Below the pieces are notes generated by a model. That model made no database searches, was not told the origin of the DNA, and saw only the letters and a program-made list of their open reading frames with translations. Made by a program: the position numbers and the translations under genes. This document shows, in pieces, positions 8,296-64,000 of a stretch of DNA of 64,000 nt (position 1 is the stretch's first letter; each line of letters opens with the position of its first letter). Location of the stretch: the NCBI RefSeq assembly GCF_964355755.1, contig NC_092670.1:28817795-28881794 (forward strand). The letters are read 5' to 3'. Source of the DNA: Antedon mediterranea. Lineage: Eukaryota; Echinodermata; Crinoidea; Comatulida; Antedonidae.

Positions 8296-9492
8296 TAGTA
8301 TTACACGCATTCATTTGTATAGTATTGCACGCATTCATTTGTATAGTATTGCACGCATTCATTTGTATAGTATTGCACGCATTCATTTGTATAAGTATTG
8401 CACGCATTCATTGTATAGTATTGCAGGCATTCATTTGTATAGTATTGAACGCATTCATTTGAATTGTATAGTATTGCACGCATTCATTTGTATAGTATTG
8501 CACGCAGTCATTTGTATAGTATTGCATGCATTCATTTGTATAGTATTGCACGCATTCGTTTGTATAGTATTGCACGCATTCATTTGTATAAGTATTGCAC
8601 GCATTCATTGTATAGTATTGCACGCATTCATTTGTATAGTATTGCACGCATTCATTTGTATAAGTATTGCATGCATTCATTGTATATTAGTTAAGGTCCT
8701 ATGTAAAGCACCTAGAGGGGTCAGTGATCCATTAGGCGCTATATAAATACTGTTTATTATTATTATTATAGTATTGCAGGCATTCATTAATTGTATAGTA
8801 TTGAACGCATTCATTTGAATTGTATAGTATTGCACGCATTCATTGTATAGTATTGCACGCATTCATTTGTATAGTATTGCACGCATTCATTTAAATTGTA
8901 TAGTATTGCACGCATTTATTTGTATAGTATTGCACGCATTCATTGTATAGTATTGCACGCATTCATTTGTATAGTATTGCACGCATTCATTGTATAGTAT
9001 TGCACGCATTCATTTGAATTGTATAGTATTGCACGCATTCATTTGAATTGTATAGTATTGCACGCATTCATTTGTATAGTATTGCACGCATTCATTTGAA
9101 TTGTATAGTATTGCACGCATTCATTTGTATAGTATTGAACGCATTCATTTGAATTGTATAGTATTGCACGCATTCATTGTATAGTATTGCACGCATTCAT
9201 TTGTATAGTATTGCACGCATTCATTTGAATTGTATAGTATTGCACGCATTCATTTGTATAGTATTGCACGCATTCATTTGAATTGTATAGTATTGCACGC
9301 ATTCATTTGTATAGTATTGCACGCATTCATTTGAATTGTTGTATAGTATTGCACGGATTCATTTGTATAGTATTGCACGCATTCATTTGAATTGTATAGT
9401 ATTGCACGCATTCATTTGAATTGTATAGTATTGCACGCATTCATTTGTATAGTATTGCACGCATTCATTTGTTTAGTATTGCACGCATTCAT
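8296..9492 (+). repeat. 24-bp minisatellite array
   Basis: About 50 head-to-tail copies of a unit close to GCACGCATTCATTTGTATAG plus TATT (24 bp). Length variants of about 21 bp (missing TTT) and 28 bp (extra GAAT) are mixed in a semi-regular order, suggesting larger units of two or three variants were amplified together. Open frames here are artefacts of the repeat. An unrelated SINE tail interrupts the array at about 8690-8770. Confidence 0.95.
8690..8770 (+). repeat. SINE 3' tail inside the minisatellite
   Basis: The segment reads GTAAAGCACCTAGAGGGGTC, then a GGCGCTATATAAATACTG motif and a run of TTATTATTATT. This GCGCTATATAAA plus ATT-repeat ending is typical of several metazoan SINE tails. 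The minisatellite resumes right after it, so either the SINE inserted into the array or the array grew around it. Confidence 0.5.
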
Positions 9493-26400: not shown

Positions 26401-29400
26401 TTTGAAGAGATGGACAGTACTTTAGCTGTACAGCAGGTATTATTTTCTTCCAGTAGTTTTAAAAATAAAGTACACACAGTATTCCTCAATCGACTAATAT
26501 CCCTGTACCCCCAGTGTTGCTCTTTCGATACTGAAATATAATTTATTGGGATAAAAATTGTGGAGGCACTTGAGAAATGTTTTCAGAGTTGAGACTTAAA
26601 AATTATAATATTAGTATTACCATAACCTAACCCTTAACCTAACTCTACATGATACAGTCACCACTGACTGTAGTACATAAAAATGAGGCAAATATTGTAG
26701 TATTTTGGAAATGCACCACTGAGAATCTTTATAATAATTTATAATTGCCTTCTATATTTAATAGTATATACAGCAGAATATAAGAAGTGACATTGGAAAC
26801 ATAGATAAGATTTTAGAAGCTCCTGATGGCCAAGATGAAGGTGTTTGGAAGTATGAACATTTACGGTAAGAATAAATCCAAAAAGAAATTTAAAACGTTG
26901 ACTGTAAAAGTATACTCGTCCAGTATGCTAATCCAGAGACAATCATAGTTTGTTATACTACATAGCCTATGTAAGTACGTGAACATGATTGGTTGAAACT
27001 GCATCACATGACTACCGCTCCGAGGATCGTAAATCGTATATCCTCGAGTACATGTAAATGATATTGACTGAGTAATTTTCGTGTAATTATCATGTCTCTG
27101 TCAATAACTAAAATCCAGCAAATTCTCGAGTACAATGATTTTCGTGTAGCAACACTCGCATTTGGCGATAAATAAACAAAAGTCATCTACTGGCACACCA
27201 TTACAAGACAATGTTTCATTTGTTGCGCCACGCAACTTGCTTGAAGAAATTAATCAACTAAACTATTTAAAATACTGTATGCATACATAGCATACATGTT
27301 ATTAGTCCTCCTTAGATGTGATGAAAGACCATTTGTGATTGGTTAATACACGCGGTAGTAACCTGTTACGCACGGCGCGCTGAACATCTTGTGATTTGGC
27401 TCCTCGAAGAAGACGAATTATTCGGCCTACCTGATAATAATATTATTATTGTTAATGTAGGTTTATTGATGGAAATTCTTCTGTTAATTTAAATGACCCA
27501 GGCAAAGTGAATATTTTATTGCCAAGGAATCATTAATTAGTAATTATCTATAGTATTCTTCGGAAGGTAAGGTGAATGCAATGCCTAACTAGACAGGCTT
27601 ATATTACAAAGGAGGCCTAGCTATGCCCAGCAGTAGATATTCAACGTGTTGTTGGCATGTAATATAAAAGAGATATCGCCTTTTATATCGGTAAAATATA
27701 AGATTTGACATCCACTCAGAGATTGATATTATGTTCTCGAGAAATATATTTCCCTCAGCTAGTGCTTAGGGAAATATATTTCTCGAGAACATAATATCAT
27801 ACCCTCGGGGATGTCAAATCTTATATTTAACCACTAAGCAATCAATATCTGTATAATCACATGCTGTGTCTGCTTCAAGAAAACTTTCAACCATGTCAAC
27901 TCAGTACAATGTCCTCTATTTTCACACAAGACAAAATCAGGACAATCATTTTTACCAACCAAAAAAGTTAATAATAAATAATTTAGTTTATCTTTTCCGT
28001 ATCTTCATTAAAAGCATACACATAAATTGTTAGCAAATCTGACATAGAATATTTAAGAAGTAAGCCTATTTGCTAAATTAGTCTTGGATATCTCAGTCAC
28101 TAACAAGATCATGTATACAGGTATCGATTGTGTTACTTTGACAGATAAAAATAGTAATATATCTCTGCAAACTTTATATAACAATCATTATCTATGCAAC
28201 CTTAACAGTAATTTTGTGTTTTTTTTTAGACAATTCTGTCTGGAATTGAATGGTTTAGCTGTTAAATTGCAAGTAAGTTTATGATTTAGTCAATTGCATA
28301 AACCTGATACAGTTTATTTAATGATTCTGTATTCTTACAGAATGTAACCCATATGTAACATGTAACAAACTATGTACATTCACAGGGTGGTAGCCATTGT
28401 TCAAGCGTGTCTGTCTGTATCTGTTTTTTATAGCATACACTGTAACTGTTACTGTATTCCAATACCATTATTAAAGTCTTGTAATAAGACTTTTATATGA
28501 TTGTTATTGGTGAGTTAATTTGTTGCTAAAATAATCATTTTTAAAATTAAATGGCTTGTACTGTATAGGCATTAATGTTTACATATTTTGTCAGGTTGAG
28601 TGCAATCCAGAAACATGCACACAGATGACAGCAACTGAGCAATGGATATTCCTGTGTGCAGCTCACAAAACACCAAAAGAGGTAAAGGGCTTTTATTATT
28701 ATCAGCTTCAGTTTATTTTCCATATTAAGATAAATAATAACAAACTACATAATATGAAAGGATGACTAAAAAAGAGCAAAGCTCGTACATGGTTTGGCCA
28801 CCTTATTAATTAGCATCTATCAAGTACCCTTGAGCCTATGACTTTTGAAACATGAAGGCTGATAGTATTTCTAATTGATTAGTATGTTTCGTCAACAGTA
28901 CATTTCAATATTATTAAACATTGGTGTTTTTTTCCAGTGCCCAGCAATAGATTATACTAGACATACCCTGGATGGTGCAGCATGTCTCTTGAATAGTAAC
29001 AAATATTTCCCTAGCCGGTAAAGTATTCTGATGTTATTTTCCTTCTTAAATATCCCTAATTATTACACAGCTTAAATGCCAAGACATGATTTGCACACAA
29101 ATTTAGCCAAAAGAATGGAATTTATAGGTTCCAGGTATCTTTCTTTGTTTAAAATGTCATTAAATCAGACTTTATAACTATCTGAGTAGATTCTTTTTAT
29201 TTGATTGAAGGATTGTGAGTCACATGATATTAATAAATGTTCTATTGCACTTATAATGACTTCATCGATAGTGCAATGCGCGTCAGTAATACAATTTTGT
29301 TTTGCATGTTCATTTTTGTTGCACAGTGAGAAATCACACGCTCGACACAGTGCTAGGCTGTTGTTAAATGATCATGTTCGACCAGCCTCTCATTAAAAGT

Positions 29401-37441: not shown

Positions 37442-40400
37442 CTATTCCTCCAGAAACTGTGCAGCAACATTTCCTCCGCATTTCAACAAAACTTTGTATA
37501 ACTTATCAACTGTGGCATTTGCTTGCGTTTGCCATGAATCAAGGATTGCTTTACCTGGCTCAGAACGGGATACTAAGTATTCAGCCAATCTTTTATCAAG
37601 TCCAAGTCCAATGGCTATCCAAGTTAATCCGCTTCCTGGTGTGGTGCCTGTTAGATCAAAATAAAATAAAAATATGATACAAGAATAATATGATATACTC
37701 AATTTGAAGTTTGCGTCATAATAGTGCATTTTCAGGTATAAGAGATCAAATAATGTTAGATGTACAGAACAGCTCAAGGTATTAAAAACGTTTTATACAA
37801 TACCATAATCGTAACTACATTTTTCTAATTATTAGATTTAACTTGGGAATTAGTTGAAATCTACGGACAAAATTAATGATAATTGTCACAAATAGTTAAG
37901 CAAGCATAGGTTGCAAGCGTTCTGTCCGTTCCATTTTACTACATAACATTTTACATCAACTCGGCATTTTAAATAAGCCCAAAATCCTGGATCGTTTACA
38001 GGTTCGAAGTACGAAAATGGAATTTCAATTTATTTTTATATTGCGAATATGTATGTTGTATCATGGTTGTATCAGCATTTAAAAATAAATAAACCTATAT
38101 AACAGCAATTTCGGGTAAAAGATCAGTAAACGATTAGTACAGTGCGCATACTGTAGCATGTAATATTTAGACTCGCAGCATCATATTTGCTTATCTTAAA
38201 GGTGCATGATTATAGTTATACCCTTCCATAAAAGTATAAAAAAAAGTTAGTAAGACATAACAATTTAATTCCTTGCAATTTACTTAAATATAACCTTTCA
38301 TCATCATCCTCATAGCATTATTAGTACCATTTTCACTTCATTATTTGTATATTAGTGAATATGATTAGAAAAAACATGCACTTACTATCTTTAAGCATGT
38401 TAAGTTCCATGCGTATATTTGAATGAACACCATAGGGCAAATCTGCAAAGTTTTTATGTGGAGGTGCCTGAGTACCTGTGACAAAGATATATGGTACTGG
38501 TATTAAATGCAACATTTAAGGAATACTGTAATTTAACAAATTGTCTATGTTCAGCTAAAACTTCTTTCTGACTTCATAATAATATAACTAGGATTACAAA
38601 TACGGTACTAGCGATTGTCTCATAGAAATATACCTGCCTTTGTATGCAGAACATACACAGAAAATAGGTAGGAATTTTTATATGTTGTTCATTTGATCGT
38701 GAACATTTAAAAATTTATATTCAACATGCTAGTAATGAATGATTTTTTTTTCATGAAAATCAAAGATTGTCCAAAATTTGTTGTTGAATATGCTATTTTA
38801 ATGTCACCTAATAGTTATCCACTTTGACCATCGAAAAAAAATGAATTTACCTAACAAAAACTGTAATTTAAAACAAAAAAATAGTCAAATTGGCCAATGG
38901 GTTTTTTTCTACGAAAGTGATTAACGTTATTAAAATTACAAAATAATCTATTAAAATTCTGATTCTATTTATCATTTTCATGTTTTGGGGGGATAATAAA
39001 ACTTTAAGTAAGTGTTATCTGTTCAATGTGGATAACAAAAATGTATTATATTGTTTGTTTGATGAGATATTTACAAACATGATTTTATTAAATCATGCGT
39101 AAATTGCTGAAGATTTAAAATTGATCTCAAAATAATTGACGAACGAAAACAATATTAAAAACACTATTGTACTATCCCTTTCAAATGAATTTCAATTTTT
39201 CTGGCATTAAATTGTCTAAGAAAGCAACATTTACCAACAATTCCAATCTTAACATGTTCACGTATTTTTGAAATTACATCTTCTCTTCCCTTATATTTGC
39301 CCTTCACTTGACGTAGACTGCGCACAAAATCTTGAAATGTCTGTAGCTTTTTCGGTTCATCACTTAATAAGTCGGGATTTTCGTGAACAAGTATTTCTAC
39401 CCACTTATCAAGAACATTTGAGACTTTTAAATTTGAATTCAATTTCTGAAAAAAAAACTTTATTTTGTAATATACAGTATACAACCAAGATGAAATGAAC
39501 CCAAGATCAAATGAACCCAAGATCAAATGTCAAACAATTGCAGCTGCAAATTTCACAACAATAATAATGCCAAAACAACTTACTGATTCAAATTGTTCAT
39601 TCAGTTCATCACTCCACTCCATTTCAGCGATTATGTTTTCAACTTCATCTTTTTCAAATTGCGCGGACATATCTAATTCTTTTTTAAAGTCCTTAAATGT
39701 TCTGCTTGACTGTGTTTTCATAAATTTCATGAAGAATAACTCAAAATTGGACAGTTTTCTTCCTGTTCAAACAATCAAATGAACAATAAATTGGAAATCA
39801 GAATTTAATGCGATAATTATATAGATAGATGGATAAAAAATATATTTCAGACAAAAAGATCAAATTAAATGAATATTTTTTAATTGCATAGTACAAATAT
39901 AATCATTAAAACAAAAGTAAAAGATATAATTACAAAATTCCTTCAATGGACTTTATTGTATATATTCTTATTCTTGAAAAAACGAAAATGCTAAACGATT
40001 ATCTTTCATATGTTTGAGCAATTTGATTTAAAAAATGAATTACAAGTACAAATAAGTAGAGTAAGGACAAGTATCAAAACCAATGTAAAGCAAAGGCAGA
40101 TAGTTCTGGCTACAATTAACTACTCTGTGCGATGAGCTCCTTTTAAGTGCACCCAAATCAAGCCAAGTGTACACTGGTCTTCTAGTCCATATCCAAGAAG
40201 ACTTGTTTCATCACCAGAACTATGAACAAGGAGTGCCTTGAACCTGTGAGGTCAGGGGTACTACAGTACTTCATTCGCAATATGCAATGAATTTTTAAGT
40301 AGTAGAGCTGTAGCTTGGTGGTTCATGCTTGCCTTCCAATCCCAAGGAACAGGGTTCAATCCTGACCTAGTGCAGGGTTCAATCCTGACCTAGTGCAGGG

Positions 40401-43400
40401 TTGTAACTCAGGGATGTAACTCACGACTCTTTCAATTCCACTCTTTAATGAGACTTTAAAATAGTTTATTCATCCTGTAATTGGTGAGTTACTCACTGTT
40501 TTATGCATATAAAATTTAAAAAAACAAAAACATTTTGGACAAACAGAAGGCCACAATTGTCTTTTGTCATTCTTTTTATTTGTAGATTCTTTGTTAATGG
40601 GTATCATTGATTCACATTTTCATGGGGATCCTATAGAATTTCTTAGTTTTGAGTCACAAGTAAAATAAAAAATATCTTACCTGGACATTGAGTTTGAGTA
40701 GAAAGCTTGGAATTATGATCATGTCCATCGACACCCTCAAGACTAGGCTCTGCCTGAATGGGAAGATGTTGCTGATTTGAGGCCTGTTTCTGGAAACTAG
40801 CCTCTGCTTGTATAGGTAGACTAAGTATTTTACCTTGGTTGACGTGATGAGGTAAATAGGCTGGCTCACCATTAGGTTGTACTGTTCTGAGATATTGAGG
40901 TTGGTTGACAACACCACCTTGCTGATGGTGAGGCTGATTGACAACTCCACCTTGCTGATGGTGAGGTTGATTGACAACTCCACCTTGCTGATGGTGAGGC
41001 TGATTAACAGCTCCACCTTGCTGATGGTGAGGTTGATTAACAGTTCCACCTTGTTGATGGTGAGGCTGATTGAAAGCTCCACCTTGCTGATGGTAAAGCT
41101 GATTAACAGCTCCACCTTGTTGATGGTGAGGCTGCTTGAAAGATCCACGTTGCTGATATTGCTGTTGTTGATTTTGATAAACAACTCCTCCCTGGTGATG
41201 TAGTTGATGGTGAGGTTGATTAACTGCTTCTGTATTCTGATCATTTCCAGTAACTTTATCAGGTGTAAAGACAACTTGTTTTTTAATTATTTAATGTTAG
41301 GGACAGAACTAGTTTTAACTAGATTTGAACTCGTCACTATGGATGAAATTTGGATACGTAGAATATGGATGCGCGCTCTTTTAAATGTCATGAACTATGA
41401 CGCAAAATATGAAAATACGACTTTTATAATTCAACTGGCCATATGATGACATCACAACATCCGATGCGCAAAATTTGTACATGAATTCGTATCTACAATT
41501 CAACAGCTTCCAGAAAACGTTTTAATCATGAGTATCACTTTTATTCTAAGGACTTCTAACATATTGGAATTTACTGTAATGATGAAAAAAAGTGATCATG
41601 CATTAATATGGCTAACCAGACATTGTGACATCATTGTATGGCCACCCGAATATAAAATATATAATTTTTGTATCTTTCGTCATAGCGCATCACATTTAAT
41701 AGAGTGCATCTCCACTTATCTGTTTTCCATTTTCACCCTGATTTTGATATTTTCTAGGTCAATTAACTATATTTCGCATGAGTTAAAAATATTTTAATTT
41801 TTATGACGTCGTCTAAAAATGAAAATAACGTGGGTCACTTATTTTCATCTTTACAGTAAATTTCAATCTGTTATAGCTCGTCAGAATAAAACGTGATAAT
41901 CATGATTAAAACGTTTTCTGGAAGCTATTGGATTGTAGATACGAATTCATGTAAACATTTTGCCAATCGGAAGTTGTGATGTCATCATATGGCCAGTTGA
42001 ATAAAAAAAGTTGTATTTTCATATTTTGTGTAATAGTTCATCACATTTAAAGGGGCGCGCATCTATATTTTACGTATTCAAATGTCTTCTACACGTTATT
42101 ATGTGGTTGCTGAGATAATGTCCTTCCGAAATTGCTATCTTAGTGTTTCATTTTGATACCGTCGCCATGTTAAAAATAAGAATAAACGGGGGGTCCCGTA
42201 ATTTCAACTATTCTACACTGTATGTAACATGTATACAGATTATACCGTTTGCACTGTATATACTATATGACACAAAATTGACAGAATTCAGCACTAACAG
42301 CATATGATATTCTTCAGTTCAGGTCATAATGCCATAATCTTTTTCCGTGTGCAAAATTACAACGTATGACGTGCGCATGGCGTTTGTTGTGCGGATAACT
42401 AACTCGTCAAAGTGACGAGTTCAAATCTAGTTATAATAGCACTAAGACAAAATTTGTTCCTTATATCTCCTAAACCGCAAATCCGATACTACCGCCGTTT
42501 GATTAGTTCCATTAGTCTATATTAAAACGGTAAATTTGTATGAAAAATGTGTTTATTAGACCAATTTCTTTGCAAATGTTCGCCAATCCTCGGCCGTTTC
42601 CCTGCCAGCAAAACCAATCAAGCATGCAATATTCAATAGCAATTAAAGAGCGCCACAGGCAGCAGATTATCGTTGTTGGAGTATGCAATTGGTGACCAAA
42701 TAAATCCCGAACTGGATGGACGGTATAGTTCTCAGCTCATGAACCCATTATTTATTAAACAATACAAAATATAATACTGTACAACAATCAAAAGAACAAT
42801 ATTTATAAGTGTGAACAGGGAAACAAACTTTCTTTCTTAAGAATACAGTAAACCTATTTCAGTTTCTTTACTATAGGGTAGAAGGCGCTCGAGTCCGGGA
42901 TGACAGAGCACAACTGGTGCTCACCAGGGTTCAATTTAGACCAATCCTGGTTACCGACAAGGTTTGCGTTTAGTTTTTCCCTCAGTTTTACTATATGAAC
43001 AGCACTAGAGAGGTTTCACAACATAAAATAAACACAATATTATATGCGTATTTGTTAGAAATGCCACATACACAAATCCATTTCTAGAACATGTGTATGC
43101 ACATAATTTACCTCTGCCAAGGAGGTGGTATATGTAATCGGTAGCGTGTGTTTGTTTATTAGCAGGGATTACTCAAAAAGTAATTACAAGATCTTTACCA
43201 AAATGAATATACAGATAGATATGTGGTCAAGGACCATTCCATTAAATTTTGGGACCATGGTCCCAATTCTGGACCACTTTTTAGTATACTTTTCAGACCT
43301 GCTAGTGTTAAAAGATAGGACAGAATTTTTCAAAAGCCGGCGAGCAGTCTTAAAGTAACAAGTAAACTGAAATTGCATTTTCTCAAGAACTACTTGTCCA

Positions 43401-46400
43401 AAAAAACTTAATTTTCATACAACAGGCAAGAGTTATAATTTGTGATTTGTAATTTTGAAACATAATTTGATTTAATGTGCACGTTTTTTTATGCGAGCCG
43501 AGTAGTTTTGTTTGATTTTCGCGATGCAGTTCTATTGTTGGTCAACTGAAGCTACACATGCTTGTAGTGAAATTAGCCTAAATCACAAACAGCATTAAGA
43601 CACACACAAATATATATATTTTTTTTTTACCGGAGAAATCTTATGTAGGAGACTTTTACAGTAGGCAGAGGTATGCACTCTCGGAGTGGCTTTCAAGTTT
43701 ATCATGGTACCCGTCCATTGGTTGGGTACCTGCTAGTGATAATAATTTATACAAAAAATGTACAAATGATTCTTACCATATTTAGGGTATGGTATCCTGA
43801 ATTTGTCACAAAATTCAATGATGACATCATTACGATCGCTTTTGTGCAAAGCTTCCATCAAAACTTGTGGTGTTGCATTTAATCCTACTTTCCCACGCCA
43901 TTTTTCCATTATAGCATATGCCACCTCAGCAACATCATTTTCTTTCCTCTCCACTATGTGAATTTCATCATTATTCAATCCAAGACTTCTAGCAAAATCC
44001 TTTATTTCTCGTACCACACGTTTTTTTAAAAAGTTAATCATGTCATTAGTGACCAAGTTTGCCTAAAAAAGTTTTTGGAAATGTGTTTTTTGAAATCTAG
44101 ATTCAAAACATGCCAGGTTATATTCAAATAAAAACAAACAAATAATGTACTTTTATATTATTTTGGGTTAGTAAACGTCATCAAAAGTTCTCAAATATAC
44201 ACTAGTACTATTCATTGCAAAAAAACTATTTTTTTCATCTTGTTACTTACTTTCGATACTGGTTGATCTTCTTTTGGGTAATTGGTTGGCTGACCTGATG
44301 CCTTAGTGATACTAGCACTGATCAACTTACTGCATGGTGCTGAAGTCTCCTTTGGCTCCACTGACATCAAAGGCCTCTTTAACAAATATCAACATATATT
44401 TCACTTCTTTTAAAATTCAAAATATTATATACAGTATTATTAATATAAGAGCATTCAGGGATTTTATACCTTTACCAAGGGCTGCAAACATTTTATTTGA
44501 CAGCTCAAAATATGCTTCCCATGATGCCCAGCCATGGCAGTGACCAACATAGTGAAGCATATAAGAGAGTCCACCAACTCAGCCCCACCACAAAATTGCA
44601 CTTTTCTTTTTTTTAGAGCGTAAAATGCTAACAAAATCTAAACAGACAAAGGTTTCTCATTCATGATAACACACACAACATCCTGCCATTAGTAGGATTT
44701 TATAATACATCGTCTAACAGACAAACACACATACACATATCACAGACAAAATAATAACCTCCTTTGTAGAGGCAATAAACTAAGATTAACTGGTTTAGAC
44801 ACTAAGAATAATGTTTTTTTATATTTTATTCGGCAATCAGGGTCATATTAGTTTGGAAGATATTTCAGTACGGTAAGCAGGTGTTGGTTCTGAAATGTGT
44901 TACAAACCAAACAATGTTTCACAACATCCAACTAGAGATCAACAAAGTGTAATCGGAATTTAGCCTTTTTATAAACATTCACAAAATTGAAAATTTTAGA
45001 ATTGATTCTTATTTTTATAAATATTTCTTTGTGTGGATAACTATACAGAATATGAAGAGGTGGACCAAGGATTTTTATATAGAATGGACCGATATTGAGG
45101 ACAAAGTTGTCTAGGAGGGTTTGGTGGCATGTTCTCCGGGAAAATATTTTTCTAGACGACTGGAGATACTGTAGCATCTGAGGCGTTTTGGCCGGTTGAT
45201 AATTATCCGAGTATATAGTGTCTTATGTTTAAAACTGTAAGAGTCTTTAACACCAGGCCTGCTCCGCCTGTTCGACTCAAGTTCAAGTTCAGATCACATT
45301 GCAAGTACAGTATTAGCGACTTTTCGTTTCGACGCTACGAACATATATCATCTAAGCCCCTTTTTAACAGAGCTGTGTGCCAGGAATATTGCGGGAATAT
45401 ACCATTACCATGCCGGAATGGTTTTCTGTGAGAACATCACACATCGACATGACCTGCTTTAGACCTACAGTAGTAATATTCTAGGGATATTCCCCGCAAT
45501 GCCAGAGGGGCATTCTGTGAGAACGTAACGCCGTTATAATTCCTCGTCGAGGCTTTGACACTTTGCGCGGTCAAGTGTATCACTTTGGCGCCGATTCAAT
45601 TAAATTAACAATAATAATGTCGAACTGGAGGGATAATGAGATAAGAGAGCTGCTTAAAATAAGGGGACAAGAAGAAATTTGTAGCATAATCTATAGGCCT
45701 AGGGCCTAGGCCATAGCTCTTTGTTGGTGCCTGACCCTTCGTCGCCGCCTTGTAACTTGTACAGCCTTCTAAGGTGTTTTACAGATTGCCGATGACGGCT
45801 AATTAATTGCTGTACCTGTATAATATGTGCACAATATACTGTACATAGCATGTATTGCATAAATATGCTATAAAGGAAGATAATAATTTGTAACTTAAAA
45901 TTCGTTGCCATATATCGCTAGACAAAAATAATAACAATAAAGGACGCCCTCAATAATTATTTTGTCAGAGACTTTTTATTGGCCGAATATGCCCGACTCC
46001 TTTCCCACAGAAAGCCGGTATATACCGGTTATATTTCCGGCACGATAGTCCGATGAGAATGGGTATATGCCGGTAACGATACCGGCACGACGGCAGCATA
46101 ATACTGGTATATTGCAGGCACATCTGTGTGAATGGGGCTCTATTGGTGCATAGCCGGCCATGCGGAGCGTCGTAAAAGCAGAACACAAGCCTTTTGATGT
46201 AACGTTACGGTGTTGAGTTTTCAAATCGTTAAAGATGAAAACTGCTAATATTTACACATTTTTAATGGTTTCATGGTTCTTTCGCGCATTGTTGGAACAT
46301 GCAGACGTGAAGTATTGTGAAACCATGGCCGGTCACATGCAGACGGTACCGCATGAAAATTGAAAAAGTTACAGGGTTTGATGCTCAGCCTAGGACATGT

Positions 46401-47958
46401 TTTCGCTGATATTTTAATCTAGGCTTACACTAAAGACAAACATTAAATAAAATTGTTTTTATATTATAATTTAGTTTTTTTAAACTTGTTTGTTTGTTTT
46501 AAAATATCAAACTTTCAATGTGTACAAAAAAGGAGAAAAAAATTGTTGTGTTTTAAAATTCAAGAATTATCAACGTGTACGTATTTTGTCACAAACTATA
46601 AATACGTAATTTGTGAACCATTTGATTTGAATTCGGGTTAAACATCAACAATTAGAGATTTTAACGATTTTTAATGTTGAACTTAATTACTCCCTTTTCC
46701 TGTAAAATTGTTGATAAAATCGTATGTAATGTAAATGGGTGATGCATCAATACCATACAGTATACATGTGTATCATCACAACCCATGGTTTGGGCTACAA
46801 GGTTTGCAATGATAAACCTTTAAACTACTTACAAACAATCAATAATTTAAAATAAGTACTGAAAGAAAAAATCCTGAATCCTTCAACAAAATGAAGTGCT
46901 ACAAATAGGGAGTTGAAATTGGGGTAATTACACCCCTGGCATATCTCAGAAAGGACCCCGGATAACCATAAACACCATCTCTTTTTTAATCCTGTAACTG
47001 AAATTGTTTATACCGTAGTTACCGTTTCATCAGGTAGATCTCTTACTAAAGCCATCTCTGCTGATGCTGCAGCTCCACCATCCTCTGGTTGTTGACCAAC
47101 TAGAGTATCTTCTGGGAAGGATTGTGGTTGTGTTGCTGAATCTGGAGAAAAATCTGGAGGAAGAAGATATGACATGCTGGGTGTAAATATTATGTAACTA
47201 TAACTTATTGAAGAAATGTTTTTATATCAGCACTTAAAATACACACATTATTGCCAAAATAACAATTTAGAATAAGATATCAAATAGTAATGAATGTTCA
47301 AAATGGTACAAATATATCATGCGGCGAATAAAAGGAAAAGTTGTATTTAAATAACAAATTTTCATCTTTCACCATATGAAATTATTTCTACCATTTCACA
47401 AATATAAAACAAATTACACATAAAAGTTAAAGTACAAGAGGCCAATAGTTAAACTATTCAAAGAGGCAGTTCAATTATAGATGGTGCACACATAATATGA
47501 TTATTAAAAAACCTAGTGTGTTTGTTAATTTATGCACAATCATCTCCTACAATCTTCTCTCCTTTTTCATCATCTGTACATCAAGCAAACATAGTATAGC
47601 AAGATGTATTTAATTTTTAACTGACTGATTGAAGAAAGGTATTGTAAATTAATCTTGTATTATCTCTTTAAACAGAAAAACATTACATACGTTTCTTTTC
47701 ATAGATGTTGATTTTCGGACTATCTGCATCTATGTTCAGATTCTCAAACGATTTCAAAACATCTTCATAACATTTAGTGTCTTCATACTTTTGAAGTCTT
47801 TTTATTGTGGTCTGCATAGTGTGGTATAATTCATCGTAATTGGATTGCAACTGTTTTAAACTGCACTTTAAATGCTTGTTTTCTTCTTGTAGTTGCATCA
47901 CATAATCATGTATTCTTTCTTTGCCTGACATAGTCATGCATGTTCTCAAATCAGACAT
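37442..47958 (-). CDS. Multi-Death-domain protein with coiled coil, nine exons
   Basis: Exons in coding order: 47958-47691, 47153-47023, 44376-44251, 44062-43777, 41274-40681, 39762-39584, 39445-39235, 38475-38386, 37647-37442 (stop 37444-37442). GT/AG sites and all eight phases agree; the total is 2091 nt, 696 residues. Exon 1 (1-89) is a coiled coil (MQLQEENKHLKCSLKQLQ). Exons 2-3 are Pro/Gln/Ser-rich. Exon 4 (176-270) is a Death domain: FLKKRVVREIKDFARSLGL, MEKWRGKVGLNATPQVLMEA. Exon 5 (271-468) carries the 11-residue repeat PHHQQGGVVNQ. Exons 6-7 (469-598) look like a divergent Death domain: FKDFKKELDMSAQF, VLDKWVEIL, FQDFVRSLRQVKGKY. Exons 8-9 (599-696) are a Death domain of MyD88/IRAK flavour: DLPYGVHSNIRMELNML, LDSWQTQANATVDKLYKVL. 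The likely role is a cytosolic adaptor in innate-immune or death signalling; I recognise no named orthologue. Exon 2 could instead start at 47141 (same phase, four residues shorter). Upstream non-coding exons are unknown. Confidence 0.8.
40300..40505 (+). repeat. tRNA-derived SINE copy in Death-domain gene intron
   Basis: AGAGCTGTAGCTTGGTGGTT (A box) and AGGGTTCAATCCTGACC (B box) are followed by the tail TTTATTCATCCTGTAATTGG and TGAGTTACTCACTG. The B-box block GCAGGGTTCAATCCTGACCT is locally duplicated. It lies antisense to the Death-domain gene, in the intron between exons 5 and 6. It belongs to the same family as 3638-3790. Confidence 0.65.
40877..41110 (-). repeat. 33-bp in-frame coding repeat (11-residue unit)
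   Basis: About seven units of 33 bp inside exon 5 encode PHHQQGG plus VV, AV, TV or AF, then NQ. Two minus-strand frames and one plus-strand frame stay open through the exon because 33 is divisible by three and the unit lacks stops. The His/Gln frame is chosen because only it joins in phase to both neighbouring exons. Copies differ mainly at synonymous or Val/Ala positions. Confidence 0.85.
41316..42433. mobile_element. 1.1-kb inverted-repeat element in intron 4
   Basis: Ends read TAACTAGATTTGAACTCGTC and its complement. A second inverted block of about 95 bp (GGCCATATGATGACATCACA inward to CAGAAAACGTTTTAATCATG) mirrors 41895-42000. No protein is encoded. It starts only 42 bp upstream of the exon 5 acceptor, so it probably supplies the branch-point region of that intron. 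Confidence 0.7.
43108..43700. mobile_element. CCAAGGAGG-type dispersed element in intron 4
   Basis: The left part reads TTACCTCTGCCAAGGAGGTG, GTGTTTGTTTATTAGCAGGG and ATTACTCAAAAAGTAATTAC. The right part reads GGCAGAGGTATGCACTCTCG with GAGTGGCTTTC. This combination is, to my knowledge, a very widespread non-coding repeat in marine invertebrates. The frames inside it are not protein-like. Confidence 0.6.
45225..46225. repeat. GC-richer dispersed repeats in intron 2
   Basis: Several blocks share CCGGAATGGTTTTCTGTGAG / GCATTCTGTGAGAACG and CCGGTATATACCGG / GGTATATGCCGGTAACG motifs in both orientations. They are separated by AT-rich DNA, and a CTAGGCCTAG block sits near 45700. The pattern suggests ends of short TIR elements nested in this intron. 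No coding potential recognised. Confidence 0.45.
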
Positions 47959-54094: not shown

Positions 54095-54852
54095 AAATAG
54101 ACCGGGCGCCCAGAAGATTTATTCATGTGAAAAGCCACAAAAGGTCTGATGGTCTGATTATGTATATATATGGCCAAAATTCAATAATCAATGCTGCCGG
54201 GTTCTATCCTGTAAATTTACCCTGGGGACACCAAATAAGAGGGGTAAAAAATGGATTTATTCATGTGAAAATCCACACGGATAAAAGTTGTTAGACATTG
54301 TTCCCATATGTGTATACAATGTTAAAACAGCAATGACAGCAACTTTATCCTGTAAGTTGCCCGAGACAGTAGCCCCAAGTGACCACTAAAAAATGGTGTT
54401 ATTCATGTCAAGAGCCACACGGCTAATTTCTTTTGCATTGTAACTGTTACACATTGGGGTGCACAAAAATATCATTGACAGCAACTTTATCCTGTAATTT
54501 GCCCCAAACAGTAGCCCCATGCAGACAGTAGCCCAGAAATGCCCGTTGAGCCATACAAAAATTAATCACACGAAGAGCCACACGGCCATTTCCTATTTTA
54601 TTGGAACTGTTACGTCTTGGGATAGACGAAAATACTCATGACAGCAACTTTATCCTGTAAGTTTCCCCCAGACAGTAGCCACAGACAGTAGCCCAGAAAT
54701 GCCCGTTGGATCCGGGCCTACAAGATTTAATCACACGAAGGGCCACACGGCCAATTCCTTTTTTATCGGAACTGTTACGTTTTTGGGATTGACGAAAATA
54801 CTCATGACAGCAACTTTATCCTGTAGGTTGCATGCCCCAGACAGTAGCCCAG

Positions 54853-56986
54853 AAATGCCCGGACGGCACAAATGCGCTTAATCAAATTGCAGACAGTGAC
54901 GAATTCTTAATACTTCTTAATGAATATGAAGAATTTTTACATCGTACTATAAAGGGTGAATTTGGCAACACTGCCGCATATTGGGCTATTTACGTGTACC
55001 TTATCAACCGCTTGTATCGTCAATTCCCGCGTGCAGTAATAACGAATGATGTGATTCTGTACATTAATGTACTGCCCTTTTTGGTTGAAACATTCTTTGC
55101 TCTGAACCGGGCAAATTATGCTCGTTGGGGTCAATTTTATTGAAAAAATGAAGAATTTGGACTTCGCAGCATTAGATGTTTTTAAAGCCGGTGCCTTTTC
55201 AACAAGACGAACGAAGAAAACGTACTCTAGAAGTTCAATAGATCTTACATTCGAGCAAACTGTTAACAGAGATGCTGCGTCATCGGCAACTGGAATTACA
55301 GCTTTTGCGAACTCAGAGAGTGCATTTTGTCGTTGGTGAGTAAGTCTCACTCAACGGAGAATTGAAGTCCATGAGTGGAATTCAACCCGGTGCAACACCA
55401 GCTAACCAGTTACGTCGACGGAGGATTGAGAGAGATAATAATGATGTAGACAAGTTTCTCATTAAGCTAAATAGTACATGCAATCCATTCGCCACTGATT
55501 CACCAGGTAAAGCTGCAAATGACATAACAAGTACATATTTGCTGGGAACACTACAGAAAGGAGTCTTATCACGGCAGCTATTTCACAAAGAATGTGTTTC
55601 AGACGAAACAAGATTATTATAGACGGTCAAGCGTATAAAGGTGCGCAATTTTGCTGCTTCAAACATGAAGAAGAAATCATTAAATGCAACAAAAGCTCTT
55701 GTTGCAGCTGAAGGTGTTCGTGATGCTTTTGGATACTTGTTATCAAAGACGACTACAGATTTGCATTATGTACTAAGTTTTCCGATCATTGAAATACCAC
55801 TAGCTATTGCACATTCCGATGGTACTCCAACAAAACAGAGAAGGCAATTCTTGCGAAGATTTTAGGAACAAGACAATCTGGTTTACATAAGGAAGACACT
55901 CCCGTGACCGACACAACTCTCTTTGATGGCGGACTTGTTCTGCATGAAGTTTTACCTCGTCATAATGTGTCTACATATGGGAAAATCGTTGCAGATATCA
56001 TGATTAAGGTATGTTCAGCAAGTGGAAATTCTGTTCACCTGTTGCTGGTCATATATATAGAACCATCAATCAAAGATGTCGAAATATTAAAGAGAGGTGC
56101 AGAGCAGAACGCCAAGAACACATTCATTATAACAGGACCGGATCAACAACAGCAAAAGAAAGGTATAGATCTATTAAAGAATAGAGAATTTAAGGAAGCT
56201 CTAGCACAGTTTCTTATAAACGATGTCCAGAATGATCACTATGGTCCAATAATAGGTGACAAAAATTGTTCGGTCATCTGACATAGACGTATTTCACGAC
56301 AACTTGAAAAGAAACAACGTGGTTTAAGCGAAGCACTCGTTGGTTTCCACGCCCTTACCGGATGTGATTTTAACTCGGCTTTCTACCGAAAGGGAAAGTT
56401 AATGCCATTTACTCATTTAGAGAAAAATTCAAAACATATTGCTGCGTTAATATTACTCGGTAGTGATGAAGGTATTGATAAATCGGCGATCACTACATAC
56501 ATATGTCAGATTTACGGTTTCAAGTCGTTAAATGACATAAATGAGGCAAGGTATCAGTCATTTATTAAGATGACATAGGGTAGGAAGGGTGTTCAGGTGA
56601 AGAAAATAAACTGTTCTTCGTTACCGCCATGCAGCAAAACACTTCATCAACATATTTTACGGGCAACTATATATCTATGGTATGGAGGGGAGCAACACCC
56701 CAGAACCAACAAAACATCTGCATCCGCTGAATTTTAGATGGCTTTTGACGATGAAGATGGTCATTATGTGCCTCGTTGGTTTGAAGGAACATCTCTGCCA
56801 GAAAAGTTGAAAGAAGCAGAATGCGAATCCAGAAACGTAATGAGTGATGAAGCAAAGGATGCAGTCGTGTATGATTCCGATACAGATATTTCTAAAGATA
56901 GTGAAATAGAAGACATTGACTATGATAGCCAACCATGGAGTGGTGACAGTGAGAGTGAATATGAGGATGATGATGATGATCAGTGA
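54853..56986 (+). pseudogene. Transposon-encoded XPG-like nuclease family protein, degenerate
   Basis: Consecutive frames give [179 protein letters not shown] and an acidic C-terminus. The DGG, FHALTGCD and KGK blocks fit the multi-copy invertebrate transposon proteins with a PIN/XPG-like nuclease. Frameshifts near 55143, 55340, 55860 and 56280 and in-frame stops near 55622, 56578 and 56736 make it non-functional. The N-terminal exons are missing or unrecognised. The Academ name is my inference. Confidence 0.7.
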
Positions 56987-57479
56987 TAATTAAGACATAC
57001 AGTGTTTTCGCTTAATCGGAATTATTTACACTGTAGCTTATGTTATTATTTTACCTTTTAATAATTAAGTAATACAATCACATGGAAACTTATAAATATA
57101 ACAGGAAGATTTCACATCTATGTAAAATGAACATCAATATGTTTTTTAGTGAATAAGGAGAATTAATCAATTCAATAGAGTACGCTACTGATACTGACGA
57201 CACTACCGACACACTTGTTTTATAAGGAATCAATGTTAGAATTAATTTGTTAGTTAATACTTTTAGTATCATAGTTTTATATTTTTCAGTTGATATTACT
57301 ACATTTAAAACTTACTGTCTGTTTTACACATATAGTGCATAAATAGTAGATTGTGAAACCAAAGTTTACTATGGATATGATGCAAACATTAACTGGTTAA
57401 AGAAACACATTATTTTTATATGATTTGAATGTATAAATTTCAAATGAACACTTTAACAACATATTTATAGTCATACCTT

Positions 57480-57985
57480 GTAACGGAGTTGTTGGTAGAA
57501 ATAATTTAACATGTGTTACGCACCAACGACGAAATGCACTCTCTGAGTTCGCAAAAGCTGTAATTCCAGTTGTCGATGACGCAGCATCTCTGTTAACAGT
57601 TTGCTCGAATGTAAGATCTATTGAACTTCTAGAGTACGTTTTCTTCGTTCGTCTTGTTGAAAAGGCACCGGCTTTAAAAACATCTAATGCTGCGAAGTCC
57701 AAATTCTTAATTTTTTCAATAAAATTTACCCCAACGAGCCTAATTTGCCCGGTTCAGAGCAAAGAATGATTCAACCAAATACGGTAGTACATTAATGTAC
57801 AGAATCACATCATTCGTTATTAATGCACGCTGGAATTGACGATACAAGCGGTTGATAAGGTACACGTAAATAGCCCAATATGCGGCAGTGTTGCCAAATT
57901 CACCCTTTATAGTACGATGTAAAAATTCTTCATATTCATTAAGAAGTATTAAGAATTCGTCACTGTCTGCAATTTGATTAAGCAC
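57480..57985 (-). pseudogene. Inverted second copy of the transposon gene's 5' exon
   Basis: On the minus strand this repeats NQIADSDEFLILLNEYEEF through AGAFSTRRTKKTYSRSS, EQTVNRDAASSTTG and FANSESAFRRWCVTH, nearly identical to 54870-55335. It then continues VKLFLPTTPLQ to a consensus splice donor (G|GTATGA at about 57480) that the left copy has lost. The cysteine codon after RRW is intact here, where the left copy has a stop. It is part of the right inverted arm. Confidence 0.8.
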
Positions 57986-58795
57986 ATTTGTGTCGTCCGG
58001 GCATTTCTGGGCTACTGTCTGGGCCTACTGTCTGGGGCATGCAACCTACAGGATAAAGTTGCTGTCATGAGTATTTTCGTCTATCCCAAGATGTAACAGT
58101 TCAAATAAAATAGGAATTGGCCGTGTGGCTCTTCGTGTGATTAAATTTTGTATGGCTCAATGGGCATTTCTGGGCTACTGTCTGGGGCTACTGTTTGGGG
58201 CAACTTACAGGATAAAGTTGCTGTCAATGATATTTTTGTGCACCCCAATGTGTAACAGTTACAATGCAAAAGGAATTAGCCATGTGGCTCTTGACATGAA
58301 TAACACCATTTTTTAGTGGTCACTTGGGGCTACTGTCTCGGGCAACTTACAGGATAAAGTTGCTGTCATTGCTGTTTTAACATTGTATACACATATGGGA
58401 ACAATGTCTAACAACTTTTATCCGTGTGGATTTTCACATGAATAAATCCATTTTTTACCCCTCTTATTTGGTGTCCCCAGGGTAAATTTACAGGATAGGA
58501 CCCGGCAGCAATATTGATTATTGAATCTTGGCCATATATCTACATAATCAGACCATCAGACCTTTTGTGGCTTTTCACATGAATAAATCTTCTGGGCGCC
58601 CGGCCTAAAAATATTTGCTTTGGTTATTTTGAAAAATCAGTGAATATAAAAAATTGTTTTTGCTAATCTAGTTTGATAAATCTGGGCCTTGCATGCACAG
58701 AGTTTGGCATCAGCTTGGACAATATCAGGCCACAGTTTACAACAACAACATTGACATAAAATGTAGAATATATACAAATAATAAATGTTTATGAG

Positions 58796-59522: not shown

Positions 59523-61969
59523 TTATTCCAAAGATTCCACAGCAATACGTATATCACATGTCAATAAAACATCATACAGCTTTTCAACTGTAGCTCCTGA
59601 TTGCGTTTCCCATGAACGGAGCACTTGATGACCTGGCTCAGGTCGAGACGCCAGGTACCGAACCAGATTGGGTTCAATTTCAAGTAAAGTAGCTATTCTG
59701 CTACATCCATTTCCTGTGCCTATAAAAGAAAATGAGCAGCATGACATTCAAGGAGCAGATCCAGGTTTCACAATCAATTTATGTATAATATAATAACACT
59801 ACTATTAGCATAATAATATACTAGCAGTAACCCGTGATCCGCACAGCCTTTTTCTACCTTAATATGTGGCTATACTAATTTGCATGGGATGAGTAAGTAT
59901 AATAAAAACGCACTCTTCCCTGATAAAAGTACTCCGACAAAAAAAACCAAGTTGTCAAGAATAAAATTCGGAACTGTTTATGGCCATTGATGTTGTTATA
60001 CACAAAGTATTCCTTCACTTTGAAATATCTGTAAGCTAAAAAATGAAAGCAATACTGGATATAGGGCTTTACGAAAATAAAAGACACTAAAGAAAATGGT
60101 GCTGTGTGAATATTAATCAAGGGTGCGCCTCAGAAATACCCACAAATATATTAATCTTATTATATAAAATGTTTATTCAACCAAGTATCACTTATGGCAT
60201 AGAAGTTTGGGGTAGCACGTATAAAACATATTTACAACCTATTTGTGTCATTCAAAAAATGTGTATGCGGTGTATAACTTTTCCTGATTTTAATGCTTCG
60301 TCATCTCCGATATTTAAGCAACATAATATTCTAGATGTTCATAAACTATACGAATTATGTGTACTTAATTTTGTTTTTGATTTATATAATAGAAACTCTG
60401 CACATCAAATCAGTTATTATTTTAGTACAGTTGATCATTTACGAACTACTAGATTTAAACAAGGTAAAAACCTATCTATCCCTAAAGCCAGTACTATGGC
60501 AGGTCAATTTAGAATTTCGTTTACTGGCACAAAATTTTGGAATAATTTATCACTCGACATAAAAAATAACACATCAAAAATCAATTTCGTAAAAAATATA
60601 ACTGACCTACTATTATTGAGATACTGATTAATGCTGGCCCACCTCTTTCTTTTTGTCATTATTGTGTTTTTTTTACATTATTGTATAATTATATTATCAA
60701 AATCGTTTGCACTGAACAGTATTATATTTGTTAATCAGGTGTAAACCATTGACTAGCAAAAGCTATTTGTTTATACCGTTTTGCCTTTGGTGAATAAAGA
60801 ATTATGTGTAGAAAATGAGAACATTTTTGAAAGGGACATGCACGTTGAAATATGTCAATCTGTCGGCAGTTTAAAACATTTTAATGATAAAATATGAATT
60901 GGTAATTAATAAAATTATGTGAAGTATTTGCAATAATAAAACTACAGCTGCTTATAAAAAAAGGTGCACATGGTGGTGGTAGTCAAAATTAAAGTATAAA
61001 TAAAATACAAAACTATATATTGAGTGTTTTCTGTGCAAGAGCTTTTATTAAATTATGCTCAGAAATAGTGATGTGTATGCAATAAGTCAAATTTATCTAT
61101 AGGTACAATAAAACAAAATTAAAAATACATTGCTGCGTAAACACGACCTAAACACATCGTTAATTGCTTTCCTTAATTGCGGGATAAGATATTTAGATAT
61201 TGATATTTTGCAATTTTTTTGTGGGAGCTTTGTTATCTTTTTTGCTACTTCTGTAATCAAATTGTGGTCTAGTTTTGATTTTTTGCTTTAAGCGGTGATA
61301 CTTATTTTACGGATTTAAACTTGAGTGTACTAAGCTGGCCACAGCGTTTTACTCACTGAGTTAGCCGTGATTAACAAAATACATTATGTTCCAAGGATAA
61401 GTGTAAGTAATTAAAACTTCAACGACGCGATCAGTCGATATGATTGGCCGGCTGTTTAATTTTGCGGCTCTACATGGTATTTGTGGATCTGGCCATTGCG
61501 GTACAACAGAGATGTGACGTCTTGCAAAACATGGCTGCTGAGACGTCAAATTACTGTTATTTGTTTGCCTTTTTTTAGTGTTTATCCTTAAAATTCAGGA
61601 AAGTGATATAGCCTATTTTGTGCGGCCCATCAAGAAACATCAGTGTGCCAAATGTAAGCATGTACCATTCAGAGGAGATACGTAAAATTACACAACCAAT
61701 TTGGTAGCATAACATTCAGAATACAATTAGTAGGATAGAGCATGCTGTAAGAGATGGACATTTAAAAAAAATTATCAAGCAACATCTGTAAACTAGATTT
61801 ATTGCCGTCTATTTTTGTTGTTTTACTCAATGCTTTAATACAGTCTTCTGAAAAATAGCTGGAAACAAATTTGACTTACTATCATCAAGCATATTAAGTT
61901 CCCTGGATACATTAAAGCGAACACCATAGGGCAGATCTGTATAATTTGTACCTGGATGTGCTTGGGTAC
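59523..61969 (-). CDS. Partial Death-domain gene, paralogue of 37442-47958
   Basis: Two terminal exons, 61969-61880 and 59719-59523 (stop at 59525-59523), have the same 90-nt exon length, phases and domain boundaries as exons 8-9 of the larger gene. They encode GTQAHPGTNYTDLPYGVRFN, VSRELNMLDDS, then CSRIATLLEIEPNLVRYLAS, RPEPGHQVLRSWETQSGATV and EKLYDVLLTCDIRIAVESLE. This is a MyD88/IRAK-like Death domain; the PG, SW and ATV-KLY-VLL positions are shared with the paralogue. Incoming phase 1 shows at least one upstream exon. None is visible up to the window end, so the gene either continues beyond 64000 or is a partial duplicate. The intron holds a LINE fragment on the opposite strand. Confidence 0.75.
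60106..60800 (+). mobile_element. 5'-truncated non-LTR retrotransposon (LINE) 3' end
   Basis: The open frame to 60627 encodes LYKMFIQPSITYGIEVWGST, LQPICVIQKMCMRCITF, SSPIFKQHNILDVHKLYELC, FSTVDHLRTTRFKQGKNL and FSGTKFWNN-like blocks ending DLLLLRY. This is the C-terminal end of a CR1/Jockey-type LINE reverse-transcriptase protein (the YGI-VWG and TKFWNN motifs are typical). It is followed by an AT-rich 3' UTR and GGTGAATAAAGAATTATG near 60790. Catalytic RT motifs are absent, so it is dead on arrival. It lies antisense inside the second Death-domain gene. Confidence 0.8.
61480..61715 (+). repeat. Dispersed repeat, copy B
   Basis: Matches 4478-4745 in the same orientation, with GCTGAGACGTCAAATTACTG, AAAATTCAGGAAAGTGATA and CCATCAAGAAACAT conserved. 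It lies in the intron of the second Death-domain gene, antisense to it. Confidence 0.65.
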
Positions 61970-64000
61970 CTAAAAAAAACAAGAAATATTCATTTAGATT
62001 TACGATACAATAGAATTTATTGTCATTTAAACAAAAAGGTAAAAATGAAAAATTGATTGAGTTTTACAATAACATGAATACAATATATAAAGCATTGTAA
62101 GAGTGATTTTAAAGTGATCTTACAAACTTGTTATCAAATACATGAATTGAATTATAAACAAATGATTGTCAGTAGCCTTTATAGACTTGCCCCAAGTCTG
62201 TATTATCTTTTTTTTAAATTTATTTGTTTTTATTTCGACCGCGATTTTTGTCTGAAAATACAGACTTGTGAATGAAACACGTATAGAAATCGATTTGCAG
62301 ACCGCAAACATCCGATAAGAATGACGTAGGTTATCATACCGTATTTGGCTATATGGGGCGGGCGGTATGTAAATATGGATTTCGAATCAACCAATGATCA
62401 TTTTGTTTCAAAATGAAAAAGATCGAGTACGGACAGTGCTGAATGTACGATCGAGACTGTTGAAATATACTAAATCGTAATGCCAAAGTTGTTTTGTTTA
62501 TTAACCCGGTTTATTAATTGTTTAGTCCTTGGCCTAGGCCTCTTTCGTAGGTCCTACTCAACTCGCACGTATGACCTGCCAAATAAAACGCCAATAAAGT
62601 AGGCCTACATACCACCAGCACACAACAGGGCTACACACCACACAGAACAACAGGACAGGGTCTGGGTGGGAAATCAAAATTATCTCCGCGTAATAAATGA
62701 TCCATTCAATGTTTGATTTGCGGAGAAGCTAGCCTATCATATCAAGACGAGTTTTCATGTTCTTGGGAAAAATCCCATCAAATGTTTACCAGACTACTAG
62801 GCATATAAAATAATTTCTAGCCTTCAGAAACTACCCAAGTACACATTGTCTAAAAGTAACATAGCGCATGCGCATCATCTTAGTTGTTGAGTCTTTGAAA
62901 TTCTGAAATATGAATATTAAAACGGTGTACGAGTGAGTAGCCAATCGCATGCAGCTAAAACTAGTCAACCGGATAATCGTATGCACCAAGAATTCTTGGT
63001 GTCAAACCACGTGACTTGTGCGTGTTTCCCCAGACGGAGTATCCAAAATCAAGTAGTATACGTATGAAACGCCATATGTGCCAAAATATTTATCTTTTTA
63101 CTAATATTAAGACAAAACTCCGTCTGGAACCCAGACTATAGCCTTTAGTGTTTTGATTCAGTTTGGTTAACCATGAATTTTAGTTACAGTTTTTTGGATG
63201 TCCCTTTCATGAAGCGAAATAAGAGGTTCCAGGTTCCGATTTAGCTAGTCTATTTTTTTCCCAAACAACAGAGCCGAATAAAAGAACACTTCTAATAACG
63301 CTATAAAAAAATGTTTAGAATTTCGAATTTAAGTTTACTGAGGAAAAAACATTCTCTGACTTGCTATTTTAGTTATGAATAATTGTTGGTTTCCTAGTTA
63401 AGGTTTTAATCAAGAACAACACCAAGGGTCTGTTTCTGGTGAGAAAAATAAAAATAATTCAAATAATAATTAAAATAATAATAATAATAATAATGATCGG
63501 TTATCTGATAACCGCTTTTTAAAAATTACGTCATCCATACCCACAACGCAGTCGAAGTTATGGAAGGCCGATGAAAGTTGGTTTGTTTACATCCTATTGC
63601 TGCCTAAAACTCTCACATGTAGGATTAAAAACTGAACTCTTACCTAAAGCTATATAATTTGTAAAATAAACATCTAGGCCTACTACCGTACCACATACAA
63701 CAGAATAATGATGTTATATTAATTAGGGCACGTCGACGAGAAAAGTTTGTTTCGCCGTTGGTGCTACTCTAGGGCCTAGCTAGACTATATATTTCTACCG
63801 AAACAACAGGCCTAAAAAAGGACATGCAAAACATCGTTAGCCTGGACTGGTGGGATGTAACGGTGTACTTGTAACGCAGAATCCTGAAGTCTCTCGGTAT
63901 AATTCTCCCCCACAAAATAATAACAAATGTTTAACATTTAATTGTTATTATTTCATTGGTCCATATCGTTGTTTTGCTGATCGTAGTCGATCGCGCAAAT
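61970..64000. other. No exon recognised; possible promoter motif
   Basis: No open frame or splice-flanked Death-domain exon was found on the minus strand up to the window end. GCGCATGCGCA at about 62864-62874 matches the NRF-1 palindromic site often seen in core promoters, but no adjacent gene start supports it. An (AAT)n microsatellite lies near 63475-63496. Confidence 0.4.

Follow-up and report, generated by a model that had tools for sequence, protein, structure and literature searches.

The stretch of DNA analyzed here, called the window below, comprises 64,000 nucleotides of the crinoid Antedon mediterranea (contig NC_092670.1, positions 28,817,795 to 28,881,794). It carries a nine-exon gene, copy A, and on balance we lean towards reading this gene and its tandem neighbor as a pair that encodes a Death-domain adaptor or scaffold specific to the lineage; in this view, a coiled coil would cluster the chains, and two Death domains, each of a different class, would bridge two sets of partners. 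At the level of the sequence, the parts of copy A are, in order, an N-terminal coiled-coil pattern, a Death domain of the THOC1/ankyrin/RIPK1 class, a linker that is long and variable, a stretch of approximately 130 conserved residues and a C-terminal Death domain of the p75NTR/MyD88 class. We regard this combination of domains as new, although of a kind already known, with a putative function and putative partners. A lineage-specific scaffold, as had been proposed in an original prediction made from this DNA, fits the results of our searches, which covered the animal's own genome.

Results

A nine-exon gene and its tandem sister

Copy A runs on the minus strand from 47958 to 37442, and its nine exons join into an open frame of 696 codons, with GT donors and AG acceptors throughout and phases of 0,1,0,0,1,1,0,1,1. 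The original prediction had assembled the same nine exons into 696 residues on the grounds of GT/AG sites and agreeing phases, and that model was confirmed by a paralog 11.6 kb upstream; because all nine exons recur there with the same phases, the model is not a product of chance. The paralog was found by searching the product of copy A against the genome from which the window comes and retrieving 27 kb around the second locus. This sister gene, copy B, lies in tandem on the same strand of the same contig (C1) and encodes 702 residues in nine exons of the same order and phases, with GT/AG sites and a stop codon at the matching place. Exons 1, 3, 4, 6, 7, 8 and 9 of copy B were located by tblastn (exon 3 weakly, 0.071), and exons 2 and 5 were picked by eye among open frames. 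Only exons 8 and 9 fall inside the window; exons 1–7 lie outside it and reach C1:28903085.

The start of copy B is credible because in-frame stop codons lie directly upstream of its ATG. In both copies, an acceptor-like AG, recognized by eye, stands close upstream of the ATG of exon 1, which makes an upstream non-coding exon likely. The acceptor of exon 5 in copy A (41274) is uncertain, having a purine-rich run-up and a poor pyrimidine tract; an alternative in-phase AG 21 bases further on, with the exon starting at 41253, would give 689 residues.

The two products share 43% identity over 612 aligned positions, with values of 51, 29, 38, 51, 27, 38, 54, 63 and 51% for exons 1 to 9, respectively, so that exon 8 is the best conserved. 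When the two loci were compared by blastn, the seven matches at 1e-3 corresponded to exons 1, 3, 4, 7, 8 and 9 and to one intronic piece of approximately 60 bases located in non-corresponding introns; exons 2, 5 and 6 have diverged too greatly for blastn. The ratio of nonsynonymous to synonymous substitution rates (dN/dS), estimated by a simple counting method with 500 bootstrap replicates, was 0.50 overall (bootstrap interval 0.40-0.63), and none of the replicates reached 1. By part, it was 0.41 for exon 1, 0.28 for exon 5, 0.50 for exons 6-7 (4 of 500 replicates reaching 1) and 0.47 for exons 8-9 (7 of 500). In the animal's own genome, all eight matches of an exon 6-9 query at E ≤ 0.01 fell in copies A and B; an exon 1-4 query found, besides the two copies, three distant Death domains, the best at 0.0028. 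The piece examined around the distant Death match on contig C10 held no complete frame of at least 80 residues.

A clear Death domain and a weaker, probable one

Death domains had been proposed in exon 4 and in exons 8-9, and both proposals stand, the second weakly. Against Pfam Death, whose cut-off is 22.6 bits, the whole products scored 55.3 bits (7.3e-15; copy A) and 68.3 bits (6.4e-19; copy B), each in two stretches; the best stretch in copy A, residues 193-256, lies in exon 4. A genome-wide Pfam Death search also lists exon 4 of copy A (8.0e-9) and of copy B (4.3e-10). A profile made from the two copies of exon 4 matched THOC1 (1.9e-7), ankyrin-3 (1.1e-5) and RIPK1 (1.8e-5) in the PDB. 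With a Death profile derived from this genome (38 of 40 Death-domain loci; L009 and L016 were dropped, their open stretches being shorter than 60 residues), exon 4 scored 43.9 and 45.2 bits in copies A and B, and none of 200 shuffles reached either score. We read exon 4 as a clear Death domain, closest by sequence to those of THOC1, ankyrin and RIPK1.

The sequence of exons 8-9 points to a second Death domain, less well supported, that falls in the p75NTR/MyD88 class. Exons 8-9 of copy B exceeded the Pfam Death cut-off (27.9 bits, 2.6e-6). The own-genome profile gave 18.6 bits for copy A and 13.9 bits for copy B, and none of 200 shuffles reached either value; likewise, in a block test that leaves the loops between blocks free, none of 500 shuffles reached the scores. 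In the PDB, the exon 8-9 profile matched p75NTR first (0.0024), then MyD88 (0.0069) and, more weakly, UNC5B (0.42). The original prediction had likened this domain to MyD88 and IRAK: the likeness to MyD88 appears to hold, with p75NTR ahead of it; no IRAK chain was among the nine PDB matches at E ≤ 1.

In agreement with the original prediction, no kinase, TIR or caspase domain was recognized inside the closed reading frame. Neither product matched TIR, the frame being closed by a stop codon at the matching place; of the 38 TIR matches in the genome, the nearest on C1 lies approximately 11 Mb from the locus (a TIR domain split between exons could be missed). Neither matched a kinase, the frame being closed after Death domain 2, and no search was made for kinase exons nearby. 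When the products of copies A and B were searched against Pfam up to E = 1, neither matched DED, CARD or caspase.

Coiled coil, linker and conserved region

The coiled coil described earlier is borne out by a heptad pattern in exon 1 of both copies: on an ad hoc score, the pattern was reached by none of 500 shuffles for copy A and by one of 500 for copy B, and the sub-threshold Pfam matches of exon 1 in both copies include coiled-coil families. A His/Gln/Gly repeat, also described earlier, is present in exon 5 of copy A as a minisatellite array (33-bp unit, 7.9 copies, 40896-41157) that encodes an 11-residue Gln/His/Gly motif, but it is absent from copy B, whose exon 5 encodes 141 Pro/Gln/His-rich residues without such an array. 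Of the two copies, only copy A carries the array, which lies within a fast-changing linker, and since copy B lacks it, we place it outside the conserved design.

Exons 6-7 encode approximately 130 residues that are conserved to a degree similar to the Death domains (38 and 54% identity by exon; dN/dS 0.50), and for this reason we consider that the region matters. It was found in the genome only in copies A and B. When folded alone, exon 7 gave a model of three main helices plus a fourth, short helix, with a predicted local distance difference test score (pLDDT) of 65.

Features of copy A and of the part of copy B inside the window (window positions; C1, contig coordinates)
Feature	Position	Strand	Remarks
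Exon 1, residues 1-89	47691..47958	-	Coiled coil; sister exon 28903085-28902812
Exon 2, residues 90-133	47023..47153	-	Linker with poor conservation
Exon 3, residues 134-175	44251..44376	-	Linker
Exon 4, residues 176-270	43777..44062	-	Death domain 1 (THOC1/ankyrin/RIPK1-like)
Exon 5, residues 271-468	40681..41274	-	Q/G/H/P-rich linker; acceptor 41274 or 41253
33-bp minisatellite in exon 5	40896..41157	-	7.9 copies; 11-residue unit ~VNQPHHQQGGV
Exon 6, residues 469-528	39584..39762	-	First half of conserved region without assigned family
Exon 7, residues 529-598	39235..39445	-	Second half of conserved region; low-confidence helical model
Exon 8, residues 599-628	38386..38475	-	Start of Death domain 2
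Exon 9, residues 629-696	37442..37647	-	Remainder of Death domain 2 and stop
Sister B exon 8	61880..61969 (C1 28879763-28879674)	-	
Sister B exon 9	59523..59719 (C1 28877513-28877317)	-	With stop

Genome setting and other features

The genome comprises 354 Mb in 18 contigs, and the matches lie on C1 to C11. It contains at least 149 Pfam Death matches at E ≤ 0.001 (150 of the 181 candidates were scored) as well as 17 CARD matches, whereas COX1 gave no match in the assembly. It also has a Death domain on C2 with a match to MyD88 (1.8e-16) and another on C10 with a match to UNC5 (7.8e-8). Death matches form dense runs at C3:19.3-25.7 Mb and C5:12.3-14.5 Mb, which suggests that genes of this kind have undergone large expansions.

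Between the two sister genes, transposon-like frames occupy window positions 54642-58024 and are repeated in inverted orientation (54808-55336 and 57400-58024, by eye); no Pfam match up to 0.01 was obtained for the five transposon-like frames at 54808-56983, nor for the frames at 22290-22724 and 60091-60624. An open frame on the plus strand at 28535-28762 probably represents a MOB gene exon, matching Mob1/phocein at 3.6e-5 (24.3 bits, below the cut-off of 27). Large minisatellite arrays are located at 8294-9492 (24/53-bp units) and 15395-16809 (77-bp units). Elsewhere in the genome, C2:7827797-8206132 holds an ordered Hox cluster of 12 homeoboxes, one of them inverted (L048), and a further homeobox lies at C2:7793581, outside the 12 examined; from their signatures, we take the 12 to be Hox1-8, Hox9/10 and three Hox11/13, presumably an ambulacrarian set. 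On the minus strand of C8:12532856-12535357, four homeodomain matches share a single open frame of 3044 residues.

Discussion

The protein encoded by copy A belongs, as judged from its sequence, to the Death-domain superfamily and appears to fall outside MyD88, IRAK and FADD by the domains that define them. MyD88 consists of a Death domain, an intermediate domain and a TIR domain, in this order. Like MyD88, the present protein has the content of an adaptor without a recognized enzyme domain and contains a Death domain that may belong to the MyD88 class; unlike MyD88, it carries this domain at the C-terminus rather than the N-terminus, has no TIR and possesses an additional Death domain of another class together with a coiled coil. 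Sequence searches of the PDB placed THOC1, ankyrin and RIPK1 closest to Death domain 1, and structural comparison of its model likewise ranked ankyrin and RIPK1 near the top, but no THO, ankyrin or kinase part was recognized in this protein; similarly, Death domain 2 is matched by p75NTR and, more weakly, by UNC5, but no receptor part was recognized. The excerpt of the amphioxus report used here describes domain-shuffled immune genes with Death-fold combinations, namely TNFR-caspase, Death-caspase, Death-NACHT, DED-NACHT and TIR-SAM (PMC2575513). The crinoid genes resemble these in presenting new Death-fold domain combinations in a deuterostome, although none of the combinations named in that excerpt unites a coiled coil with two Death domains (PMC2575513). 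A literature search limited in scope found no description of an architecture with a coiled coil and two Death domains.

In the function that we propose, the coiled coil would oligomerize the protein and thereby cluster its chains, while each of the two Death domains, being of a different class, would bring in its own set of Death-domain partners. The protein would in this way join an assembly of the MyD88/p75/UNC5 type to one of the RIPK1/FADD/ankyrin type, and the length of the linker, altered by the minisatellite, would affect only the spacing. In vertebrates, the two signaling assemblies use separate adaptors. Candidate partners exist, since the genome has MyD88-like and UNC5-like Death domains together with the TIR and Death matches counted above, and the protein may form a Myddosome-like assembly, as suggested in the original prediction.

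Several results weigh against this proposal, whose partners and pathway are ones that we infer. For Death domain 2, the Pfam Death score of exons 8-9 in copy A (21.7 bits, 2.2e-4) was below the cut-off; exons 8-9 of neither copy appear in the genome-wide Pfam Death list (E ≤ 0.001), for which exons were scored apart and E-values were scaled to the whole genome; and the block-test scores (14.7 and -3.2) were lower than that of the lowest left-out positive (21.5). For Death domain 1, the AlphaFold model from the single sequence was helical and of low confidence (pLDDT 67.9), and the top ten Foldseek matches of this model were all Death domains, but with E from 0.23 to 2.3. VIA-align aligned it with ankyrin, FADD, RIPK1 and others at Z up to 5.9 against a background in which an unrelated chain reached 5.6 and cyclin K 5.0; no THOC1 chain was in the VIA-align list (147 chains aligned). 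Lastly, dN/dS was 0.64 in exons 2-3, with 37 of 500 replicates reaching 1, and 0.63 in exon 4 alone (interval 0.36-1.06; 24 of 500).

Other explanations concern the number of Death domains, the number of genes and the direction of the effect. Exons 6-7 might encode a third Death domain, one that has diverged strongly and carries inserted loops, which would make the protein a triple-Death-domain scaffold; we regard this as possible but doubtful. Judged by eye, the motifs are ordered as they might be in a Death domain interrupted by two loops: part of exon 6 looks like helices 1-3 of Death domain 1 and is followed by a Trp-bearing helix, two helices and G-R-E-D at the close. The model of exon 7 places helices at 11-22, 24-27, 31-46 and 54-66. 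In addition, hhalign aligned 26 columns of the exon 6 part with Death domain 1 (P 0.072), and in the loop-tolerant block test, copy A ranked in the upper 5% of its own shuffles (25 of 500), scoring -7.5 versus -21.4 for the reversed sequence. In the same test, however, the score was reached by 153 of the 500 copy B shuffles and by 82 of the 1000 joint ones. When exons 6-7 were scored with the own-genome profile, 11 of 200 and 8 of 200 shuffles did at least as well, and reversed sequences scored equally high. Moreover, Pfam Death gave no match in exons 6-7 of either copy up to E = 1, and none of the 24 matches up to E = 10 in the PDB profile search was described as a death-fold protein. The six Foldseek matches of the exon 7 model (best E 5.6) included no death fold, a result that says little for half of a region folded without an alignment. 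Comparison of exons 6-7 with both other Death domains by hhalign gave nothing convincing. The third Death domain of the original prediction is thus not supported by Pfam, the PDB profile, hhalign or the two shuffle tests, and we describe exons 6-7 as a conserved helical region without recognized relatives. In a bolder version, which we consider quite unlikely, exons 6-7 would represent a new branch of the fold that carries inserted loops, and three Death-fold modules of three classes on a coiled-coil oligomer would form an ambulacrarian-specific scaffold pair that directly links, within one polypeptide, an assembly of the MyD88/p75 type with one of the RIPK1/FADD type.

It is very improbable that the locus consists of two genes, one for a coiled-coil/Death-domain protein (exons 1-7) and one for a short Death-domain protein of the p75NTR/MyD88 class (exons 8-9), because copy B keeps the nine exons, the phases and the stop codon and dN/dS is 0.50. 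A division at this point is suggested by the length of intron 7-8 in copy B (15.5 kb) and by an in-frame ATG closely upstream of exon 8 in copy A (open reading frame 38333-38515), but the same intron measures only 759 bases in copy A, and the open stretch immediately upstream of exon 8 in copy B (open reading frame 61830-62063) has no in-frame ATG. Copies A and B both retain the phase-1 junction between exons 7 and 8, complete with GT donor and AG acceptor, and exon 8 is the best conserved of the nine (63%). A decoy or inhibitor, which would titrate Death-domain partners and dampen signaling instead of building a signaling center, seems unlikely: the adaptor-only domain content and closed frame would suit such a role, and free-standing Death domains can act as inhibitors, but two Death-domain classes together with a coiled coil would suit bridging better than titration.

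With at least 149 Death matches in the genome, of which these genes represent one small family, the degree of surprise is moderate. The bridging adaptor or scaffold that we favor would be a further case of domain shuffling as in amphioxus, and the analysis marks a conserved region of approximately 130 residues without recognized relatives. If our reading is true, then a single chain with two classes of Death domain would constitute a natural shortcut between two signaling assemblies.

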